Below the pieces are notes generated by a model that saw nothing but the letters and a program-made list of their open reading frames with translations, did not search any database and was not told the DNA's origin. Of a stretch of 40,757 bases of DNA, positions 3,261 to 5,792 are shown piece by piece (the first letter of the stretch is position 1; every line of letters begins with the position of its first letter). The position numbers and the translations under genes are program-made. This stretch comes from Desulfobacca acetoxidans (GTDB lineage: Bacteria > Desulfobacterota > Desulfobaccia > Desulfobaccales > 0-14-0-80-60-11): NCBI GenBank assembly GCA_020722205.1, contig DYLF01000016.1, positions 1-40,757 on the forward strand, read 5' to 3'.

Positions 3261-5792
3261 TCAAAGCAACGACAACCTCTCATCGTAAATAAATTCCCGC
3301 GTATGCCGCGCAATCCACTCCGGCTCCAAGTGCAAGCGGGCCATCCCCGACGCCAACCCGGCCCGGGCCGTGGCCTCGGCCACCACCGGCGGCACCCGGA
3401 AGTCCATGGCCTGGGGCAGAATGTGGTGGGGGCTCAGCTCCTCTCCCACCAGGGCGGCGATGGCGTGGGCCGCCGCAATATTCATGGCATCGTTGATGGC
3501 CGTGGCCCTGATATCCAAAGCCCCCCGGAAGATGCCGGGGAAGGCCAGGCAGTTGTTCACCTGATTGGGGAAATCCGAGCGCCCGGTACAAACCACCGCC
3601 GCTCCCGCCAGCTTCGCCGCCTCGGGATGGATTTCAGGATCCGGATTGGCCAGGGCGAACACTATGGGCTCCGGCGCCATGGTTTTCACCATCTCCGGGC
3701 TCAGGACCCCGGGGCCGGAAAGCCCGATGAAGACGTCGGCGCCTTTCAGGACTTCGCCCAGGCTGCCCTTGAGGCCATCCGGATTGGTGAGCTCTGCCAG
3801 CTCGTCCTTGATGGGGTTCATACCCTGCGTCCGGCCTCGGTAGATGGCACCCTTGGTATCACAAACCACGATCTGGCTGGCGCCGGCCTGCAGAAGAAGC
3901 CTGGTGGTGGCGATAGCCGAGGCCCCGGCCCCGCTGAAGACGATCTTCACCTCCCTCAGTTCCCGCCCGGTGATGGTCAGGGCATTCAGCAACGCCGCCA
4001 GGATGACCACCGCGGTGCCGTGCTGGTCGTCGTGGAACACCGGAATATCCAGCACTTCCCTTAACTTTTGTTCGATCTCAAAACAGCGGGGCGAGGAGAT
4101 GTCCTCCAGGTTGATGCCGCCAAAGGCCGGAGAAATATTGGCCACCAGCTCCACCACCAGGTGCGGCTCCTGGGTGCCGAGACAGATGGGGAGGGCCTCC
4201 ACCCCCCCAAAGGTCTTGAAGAGCACGGCCTTGCCCTCCATCACCGGCAGCGCCGCCCGGGGGCCGATGTTGCCCAGCCCCAAAACCGCACTGCCGTCCG
4301 TGACGATGGCCACCAGGTTGTTTTTCGCCGTATAGTCATAGGCGCTCAGGGCTTCCCGACGTATTTCCTGCACCACTTCGGCCACCGCCGCCGGGGCGTA
4401 CAGCCTTCGATAGATTACCTCATCCTTGACCGGCACCTTGGCATAGATCTCCACCACCCCATTATACCGGCAATGTCCCTCCAACGCCTCCTGATCGATG
4501 GTCATCTGGCCGTAATCCTGGCCGGCGGACGGCAGCCAGGCCAGCTCGCCTTCGTAGATATAACGTTCGGTGCGCTCATAGACCCGCTCCGGGGGCATAT
4601 CCTGGGGGCCGATCTGGGCCACCCCGGTTTCCTGGGCCGCCTGCGCCACGGCCTTCGCCACCACCGGAGAGATGCGCCAATCCATCTGCCGGGGCACGAT
4701 GTTGTCCGGGGAGAGTTGCTCTTCGGGGATCATGGCCGCCAAGGCCCGCGCCGCCGCCAGGTACATGCGGACGTTGACTCGTTCCGCCCCCACGTCCAGG
4801 CAGCCCCGGAAAAACCCCGGCGTCACCAGGGAGGAACGGATCTGGTTGACGCTGTCCGGAAGACCCGTGGCCACCACCGCCGCGCCGCCTTGTTTCGCCT
4901 CCGCTTCGCTGATCTCCGGCTCCGGCAGGGCCAGGGCAAAGACAATGGGGTCCGGGGCCATGGAGCGCACCATCTCTCGAGTCAGCACGCCACGGGCAGA
5001 CAGCCCGATAAAGACCTCCGCCCCCTTGATCACCTCGGAGAGGGGGCCGCTGAAGGGATGTGGCCGCACCAGCCGGGCAATTTCTGATTTGGCCCAGTTC
5101 ATGCCCTCCAAACGATAAACCCCCAGGGCCCCATAGCGGTCACAAAGCACCACATTATCAATCCCCGCCACATATAGCCCCTTGGCCACCCCGATCCCGG
5201 AGACCCCGGCGCCGCTGATGACAATTCGCACCTCAGACGGCTTTTTCCCTACTACTTTCAAAGCATTGAACAGGGCCGCCAACACGATGATGCCGGTGGC
5301 GTGAAATTCATGGTGCAGCACCGAGACCCGCAACGCTTTGCGGATGCGGGACTCGATGGTAAAGCATTTGGGCGCCGCGATGCTCTCCAGACAGACGCCC
5401 CCGAAGGTGGGAGCGAGGAGGCGGATCAACTCCACAATCTCATCCGCGTCCTGGGTGTGGAAGGCCAAGGGCACGGCGTCCACATTGGCAAAGGTCTTGT
5501 AGAGCACAGATTTGGCCTCCAGCTTCGGCAAGACCGCCCTCGCCCCGACATTGCCGAATTCAAAGACTGCGCTGCCGTCAGAGACCAGCGCGATGGAATT
5601 CCCCCGGCAGGTATAGCGGTAGGAGGACACCGGGTTCTTATGGATCTCCCGGCAGACCGCGGCCACCCCCGGGGTATAAATGCGGCTCAACACGGACATG
5701 TCCCGAATGGGCATCTTGCTCTTGACGCCGATCAACCCGCGATGACGCCGGCGGTAAGACAGGGCCTCGGATTCCTGCTGCAGGTCGGACAT
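3261..5792 (-). CDS. Double malic enzyme: two fused malic-enzyme modules, first one degenerate
   Basis: 843 residues; a normal short bacterial malic enzyme has about 400-450. Module 1 spans about residues 15-425 and module 2 about 440-843, both with the malic N-terminal and NAD-binding domains. Module 2 keeps the metal site (GGINLEDI with E563/D564; FHDDQHGT with D588/D589), Lys521 and the nucleotide motif FSGAGASAIA, so it should decarboxylate malate to pyruvate with Mn or Mg and NAD(P). In module 1 the metal site is changed to CLESI (E136/S137) and LHHEFHATG (D to H/E), although Tyr39 in IYTPGVA, Lys94 and GAGVSGIG remain. Conversely, module 2 has YAPAA (Tyr465) where YTPGV is usual. Module 1 is therefore probably a structural or regulatory pseudoenzyme and the chain an intramolecular pseudo-dimer. 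The ATG at 5792 is preferred because AGGTG lies seven bases upstream; a GTG three codons earlier is possible. No phosphotransacetylase domain follows. Confidence 0.88.
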   Translation of the reverse strand: MSDLQQESEALSYRRRHRGLIGVKSKMPIRDMSVLSRIYTPGVAAVCREIHKNPVSSYRYTCRGNSIALVSDGSAVFEFGNVGARAVLPKLEAKSVLYKTFANVDAVPLAFHTQDADEIVELIRLLAPTFGGVCLESIAAPKCFTIESRIRKALRVSVLHHEFHATGIIVLAALFNALKVVGKKPSEVRIVISGAGVSGIGVAKGLYVAGIDNVVLCDRYGALGVYRLEGMNWAKSEIARLVRPHPFSGPLSEVIKGAEVFIGLSARGVLTREMVRSMAPDPIVFALALPEPEISEAEAKQGGAAVVATGLPDSVNQIRSSLVTPGFFRGCLDVGAERVNVRMYLAAARALAAMIPEEQLSPDNIVPRQMDWRISPVVAKAVAQAAQETGVAQIGPQDMPPERVYERTERYIYEGELAWLPSAGQDYGQMTIDQEALEGHCRYNGVVEIYAKVPVKDEVIYRRLYAPAAVAEVVQEIRREALSAYDYTAKNNLVAIVTDGSAVLGLGNIGPRAALPVMEGKAVLFKTFGGVEALPICLGTQEPHLVVELVANISPAFGGINLEDISSPRCFEIEQKLREVLDIPVFHDDQHGTAVVILAALLNALTITGRELREVKIVFSGAGASAIATTRLLLQAGASQIVVCDTKGAIYRGRTQGMNPIKDELAELTNPDGLKGSLGEVLKGADVFIGLSGPGVLSPEMVKTMAPEPIVFALANPDPEIHPEAAKLAGAAVVCTGRSDFPNQVNNCLAFPGIFRGALDIRATAINDAMNIAAAHAIAALVGEELSPHHILPQAMDFRVPPVVAEATARAGLASGMARLHLEPEWIARHTREFIYDERLSLL

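Follow-up and report, generated by a model that had tools for sequence, protein, structure and literature searches.

Small prokaryotic malic enzymes (MEs) are homodimers of subunits of ~400-490 aa with two equal sites, each of which is composite, as the catalytic tyrosine loop (YTPGV) of one subunit reaches into its partner (PMC7902834, PMC11944484). In BdMaeB, Y52 is supplied by the other monomer (PMC7902834), and in the Entamoeba enzyme EhME the YTPGV loop is swapped, with 2.8 Å between Lys120 and Tyr65′ (PMC11944484). Metazoan MEs, on the other hand, keep the loop in cis and carry a 'tyrosine insertion' (PMC11944484). The small-ME dimers have been described as deeply entangled, and the reason why they keep a composite site has been called unclear (PMC11944484). 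No tandem or pseudo-dimeric ME is described in the open-access literature that we searched. Other enzyme families do have fused pseudo-dimers with one shared site, as pepsin-like proteases compared with the retroviral protease, and a tandem ME is therefore no new category.

The stretch analysed here (the window, 40,757 nucleotides of Desulfobacca acetoxidans contig DYLF01000016.1) carries a tandem ME on its minus strand, where all the features of this gene given below are found. The gene is a single open frame (3261..5801) of 846 codons from a GTG. Inspection of the sequence shows an AGG at 5803-5801, 8 nt ahead of an ATG at 5792, which makes this ATG the likelier start and yields a protein of 843 aa (3261..5792); residue numbers throughout count the GTG at 5801 as residue 1. 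Both Pfam domains of MEs, malic and Malic_M, were matched twice and far over their cut-offs (PF00390, 137.6 bits against 23.1; PF03949, 136.2 against 23.5), as expected of a small-type prokaryotic ME. The chain consists of two small-type modules, M1 (residues 4-417, 4551..5792) and M2 (residues 435-846, 3261..4499), joined by a linker (residues 418-434, 4500..4550) that is modelled with low confidence at 420-429. The fused double ME proposed in the first-pass annotation is thus a real reading frame. A profile search with PF03949 found no second gene in the source genome, which is estimated to be 99.97% complete.

The spacing of the catalytic residues of BdMaeB (Y52, K107, E149 and D174) is reproduced in both modules (Y42/Y468, K97/K524, E139/E566 and D164/D591, respectively), although the residues themselves are not equally preserved. 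To follow them among relatives, we aligned 57 complete tandems (54 distinct), split into modules, with 74 single MEs; counts over 58 or 59 modules are given where they apply. M1 retains the crossover segment (residues 23-67, 5601..5735), which reaches over to the other subunit in small MEs (PMC11944484), at the length seen in single MEs. Within it lies the tyrosine loop YTPGV (residues 42-46, 5664..5678), present in 57/57 tandem M1s and predicted to serve the metal site of M2. The rest of the M1 site is degenerate. The LED motif lacks its Asp (E139-S140, 5382..5387); HDDQH has become HHEFH (163-167, 5301..5315), so that the catalytic Asp is gone from position 164, as in 59/59 M1s; L292 (4926..4928) replaces the nicotinamide-contact Asn, retained in only 4/59 M1s (lost in 55/59, or 53/57 complete tandems); and NQVNN is reduced to NQIRS (319-323, 4833..4847), its last Asn being lost in 59/59. 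The initial description of M1 as having kept YTPG next to LES and HHEFH was accurate, but its conclusion that the metal ligands are lost needs refining: E139 is retained in this protein as in the majority of relatives, and 34/59 M1s still have the LED Asp, which is lost in 24/57 complete tandems. Common to all M1s are instead two other losses: HDDQH is without its first Asp, which partners the general-base Lys, and NQVNN without its final Asn. The general-base Lys itself (K97) is lost in 22/59 M1s (21/57 complete tandems).

M2 shows the converse. Its tyrosine loop reads YAPAA (468-472, 4386..4400) and is one residue longer, giving a crossover of 47 residues where M1 and single MEs have 46; no 'tyrosine insertion' is found. 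YTPGV occurs in 0/57 M2s and is replaced by 26 different sequences among the complete tandems. The motifs first read in M2 (LED, HDDQH and YAPA) are all there, yet the tyrosine is not among the losses: Y468 is retained while the T-P-G-V around it has disappeared, and a Tyr is kept in 57/58 modules (56/57 complete tandems), the exception being a Phe. The M2 core is formed by the general-base Lys K524 of MEGK (4230..4232), the LED metal ligands (565-567, 4101..4109), HDDQH with the catalytic and metal Asp residues (590-594, 4020..4034), N719 of ANPDPEI (3645..3647) and NQVNN (746-750, 3552..3566). Each of these, including both final Asn residues, is found in 58/58 modules, and the whole core is complete in 57/57 tandems. 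The cofactor site (GAGASA 624-629, D648, R657 and K665, 3807..3932) has an NADP-type spacing, the same as that of BdMaeB D233/R242/K250.

One substitution in M2 lies outside these motifs. At the GVD motif, residue 535 (4197-4199) has changed from Asp to Glu in 58/58 M2s, and the Asp is retained in M1. By spacing this position corresponds to EhME Asp131, which contacts the backbone of the partner's crossover, suggesting that the interface itself has turned asymmetric.

Because the tyrosine loop of small MEs is donated in trans, we assigned the M1 loop to the M2 core (site A) and the M2 loop to the M1 core (site B). Read in this way, the seemingly complementary losses of the two modules amount to the loss of one composite site, B. 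Our results show an intact site A, with the complete catalytic set, in every one of the complete tandem homologues (57/57) and an intact site B in none (0/57), whereas all 74 single MEs carry Y-x-PGV and the whole core. Tandems therefore do not have the two equivalent sites of a small-ME dimer, and the recurrence of the reciprocal pattern in 57/57 excludes chance. The same division is seen over the whole set of 124 positions that are conserved among single MEs: within the crossover more of them are preserved by M1 than by M2 (5 against 1), and in the remainder of the module more by M2 than by M1 (63 against 6), with a Fisher p of 1.5e-4, a value that serves only as a guide since neighbouring columns are not independent. 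The nearest relatives of known structure are small prokaryotic MEs, and a phmmer comparison with one of them, 5CEE, built its match from residues 5-72 of M1 and 488-822 of M2, in the same pattern. We conclude that the protein is very probably a fused small-ME dimer with a single working composite site, made of the M1 tyrosine loop and the M2 core; the action of the loop in trans would follow that of published structures of relatives. The internal pseudo-dimer that had been suggested from the window alone is thereby supported by relatives and modelling: one site would work and the other be dead, the dead half having a regulatory or perhaps only a structural role. The refinement is that the working site spans both modules. 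The degeneration proved to be conserved in tandem relatives, and a search for fused tandems with two canonical modules, which would have contradicted it, returned 0/57.

Modelling of the chain with AF2 gave a confident structure (pLDDT 91.3, pTM 0.90), low only at the ends and in the linker. It places strands at 24-28 and 450-454, the position of the intersubunit β1-β1′ contact described for small MEs and EhME (PMC11944484). When M2 was modelled alone, pLDDT fell to 39-58 over most of the first ~100 residues and the β1 strand was absent; the alignment for this run had no tandem rows, unlike that of the whole chain. The contrast between the two models, not a perfectly clean one for this reason, supports an M1-M2 pseudo-dimer, as the first-pass annotation had proposed. 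Foldseek confirmed the small-ME fold of each module (5CEE, TM 0.97 by target over 387 residues). Its PDB matches were all single small-ME chains, and the comparison is hence no test of the arrangement between modules.

Among genomes of the same family the tandem was found in 19/21 others searched, at 74-78% identity, one copy being cut by a contig end. It is missing from one genome of the family (G016, 98% complete), where a 656-aa frame gives the sole, distant match and may encode a large-type ME that takes its place. An even draw of 395 genomes of the phylum, searched at E <= 1e-150, yielded the tandem in 44 genomes from 29 genera and 12 family codes; all but one of these matches (43) fall in open frames between 841 and 1007 aa long, the exception (G107) being a frame of 631 aa that sits at the edge of its contig. 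Further copies come, among others, from metagenome-assembled genomes (MAGs) labelled, as deposited, Chloroflexi/Chloroflexota (L039), Nitrospirae (L068; excluded from counts for frame breaks in its contig) and Vampirovibrionales (L036). Of the named records, those nearest to the window protein, with 75-77% identity, are MAGs labelled 'Deltaproteobacteria'.

In phylogenetic trees all M1s form one clade (100/99) and all M2s another (98/95), both apart from single MEs and both unchanged when the active-site columns are removed, which rules out independent fusions in separate lineages. The distance matrices of M1 and M2 correlate with r = 0.956, a value not reached in any of 2000 permutations. One clade per module and matching distances point to a single ancient event of duplication and fusion, after which the two modules descended together, whether or not the gene also moved between phyla; the 57 tandems are consequently not independent as regards the first losses. 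Later losses in M1 are unevenly spread (K97 in 21 tandems, the LED Asp in 24). Both modules share residues that are rare in the sampled single MEs (D34/D460 and Y416/Y839), along with S77/S504, a minority state there. M1 has diverged more than M2 (median identity 0.50 against 0.60), but its dN/dS of 0.05-0.20, similar to that of M2, indicates purifying selection and hence that M1 is needed. An apparent canonical fused tandem in a Clostridiales MAG (L038) was rejected, for it is in fact two separate adjacent canonical genes from a recent, unrelated duplication. This locus (3965-6400, plus strand) carries two near-identical unfused ME genes and resembles the presumed first step towards a tandem.

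M2 might alternatively be a self-sufficient ME that uses its own Tyr468, either in cis or between two chains paired through their M2 modules, leaving M1 as a scaffold or regulator only. The near-universal M2 tyrosine and the complete M2 core speak for this. Nevertheless, the TPGV loop is gone from every tandem, its replacements are diverse and one residue longer, one M2 has a Phe, the insertion that would accompany a cis arrangement is absent, M1 holds YTPGV in 57/57, and the first ~100 residues of M2 modelled alone have no confident fold. We therefore regard self-sufficiency of M2 as improbable.

Slightly less probable still is that M1 has been neofunctionalised and that the chain is bifunctional, M1 exerting another activity through its conserved nucleotide site and the M1-specific residues R17, S60, R66 and W236. 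The invariance of these residues, the (near-)invariance of GAGxxG, D221, R230 and K238, and purifying selection are in its favour. However, no M1 has the catalytic Asp or the final Asn of NQVNN, most M1s have lost the nicotinamide Asn and over a third the Lys, the pieces that remain vary by lineage in a manner that fits loss of chemistry better than a shared new chemistry, and several of the M1-specific residues belong to the crossover or its vicinity. Decay of the gene, with a degenerate module on its way out, or an error of assembly would agree with the faster evolution of M1. We give either practically no credence, as 57 complete frames with the same boundaries recur across numerous independent assemblies, some of them single-contig genomes, and the low dN/dS holds in both modules; selection and the 57 intact homologues likewise rule out two broken copies or a pseudogene.

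If the chain is a fused dimer with one composite site, its likely history is as follows. A small-type (~420 aa) homodimeric ME would have been duplicated and fused in frame, turning an intertwined dimer into a single chain. As small-ME dimers swap their tyrosine loops, the fused protein would at first have had two composite sites, A and B, of which B was then lost and A retained. With a single predicted site per chain, the present enzyme would decarboxylate malate oxidatively, or run the reaction backwards, using NADP (or NAD) as cofactor, M1 giving Tyr42 for the tautomerisation step and M2 giving K524/D591, the metal ligands E566/D567/D592 and N719/N750. M1 would have been retained because the substrate domain of M2 cannot fold or work without the crossover of a partner.

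A second possible reason for keeping M1 is that its remaining adenosine/2′-phosphate site senses a nucleotide. The nucleotide-binding region of M1 is preserved (GAGxxG 197-202, D221, R230 and K238, 5088..5213), with D, R and K each present in 58/58 M1s; in single MEs the R and K are found in 59/74 and 60/74, respectively. The spacing of D221/R230/K238 equals that of BdMaeB D233/R242/K250, residues that sit around the 2′-phosphate of NADP (PMC7902834). The simplest reading of these residues is that M1 would bind a phospho-adenosine nucleotide in a structural or regulatory role, and nucleotide sensing by M1 is possible. Altogether, we infer activity at one site, pairing of M1 with M2 within the chain and, more tentatively, nucleotide sensing.

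The fusion of an entangled dimer may also have affected chain topology. When HP0242, likewise an intertwined homodimer, was concatenated head to tail, an engineered knot resulted (PMC5159899); there the knot has been shown, whereas the tandem ME is a natural protein in which, by analogy, a knot is possible. The most elaborate version, a natural concatenated entangled dimer with a knotted chain and one composite site, with NADP(H) or a like phospho-adenosine nucleotide bound to a partner pseudoenzyme that modulates this site, appears rather unlikely to us as a whole. Should the chain be knotted, the engineered HP0242 knot would have a counterpart in nature.

The tandem shares its domains, per-module fold, crossover length and site A catalytic set with small prokaryotic MEs (PDB 5CEE, 1WW8/2DVM, 2A9F, 2HAE/1VL6; EhME 3NV9) and differs from them in being one chain with one predicted site, the second one being dead throughout the relatives. 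With the hybrid MaeB enzymes (BdMaeB, E. coli MaeB, S. meliloti DME/TME), it shares a Tyr that is here predicted to be donated in trans, the GAGASA and D/R/K spacing in M2, which is NADP-linked in BdMaeB, and a fused partner in the form of a catalytically dead enzyme homologue. In those hybrids, however, the partner is a dead phosphotransacetylase (PTA) that binds acetyl-CoA, whereas here it is a second ME module predicted to give a catalytic residue. The tandem is itself no MaeB hybrid (no PTA domain in Pfam; PRK12861, 663.6 bits against a cut-off of 1178), nor a malolactic enzyme (NF041582, 112.1 bits against 850), nor a large, eukaryotic-type/SfcA ME, since it lacks the Tyr/Lys insertions and has a crossover of small-ME length.

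The genomic context gave no functional clue from a conserved operon: the ORFs flanking several tandems, inspected by eye, share no neighbour gene. Isolated neighbours include PEPCK_ATP near one tandem (L037) and a CBS-domain gene before another (L033). In the window, the divergent neighbour (5992-8571, plus strand) encodes a MEDS-PAS-PAS-HisKA-HATPase-receiver hybrid sensor kinase. Also on the plus strand, 1982-2811 holds two adjacent small paralogous ORFs of ~140-150 aa with signal-peptide-like starts and no Pfam match, and 19031-20455 an apparent fusion of hexulose-6-phosphate synthase-like and RraA-like domains, as read from the translation.

If site sharing were ignored, a degenerate tandem of this kind would look like two broken enzymes. 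Seen as a fused dimer, it would be an enzyme reduced in nature from the usual two shared sites to one, and offers a ready-made test of why composite sites are retained. It separates what is necessary in the partner, the crossover with YTPGV, from what is dispensable, namely the metal site, the Lys, the Asp and the nicotinamide site, and permits residue-by-residue study of a single site free of homodimer symmetry. Furthermore, the invariant nucleotide residues of the dead half lead to a specific and testable proposal, that the enzyme may be regulated within its own chain.
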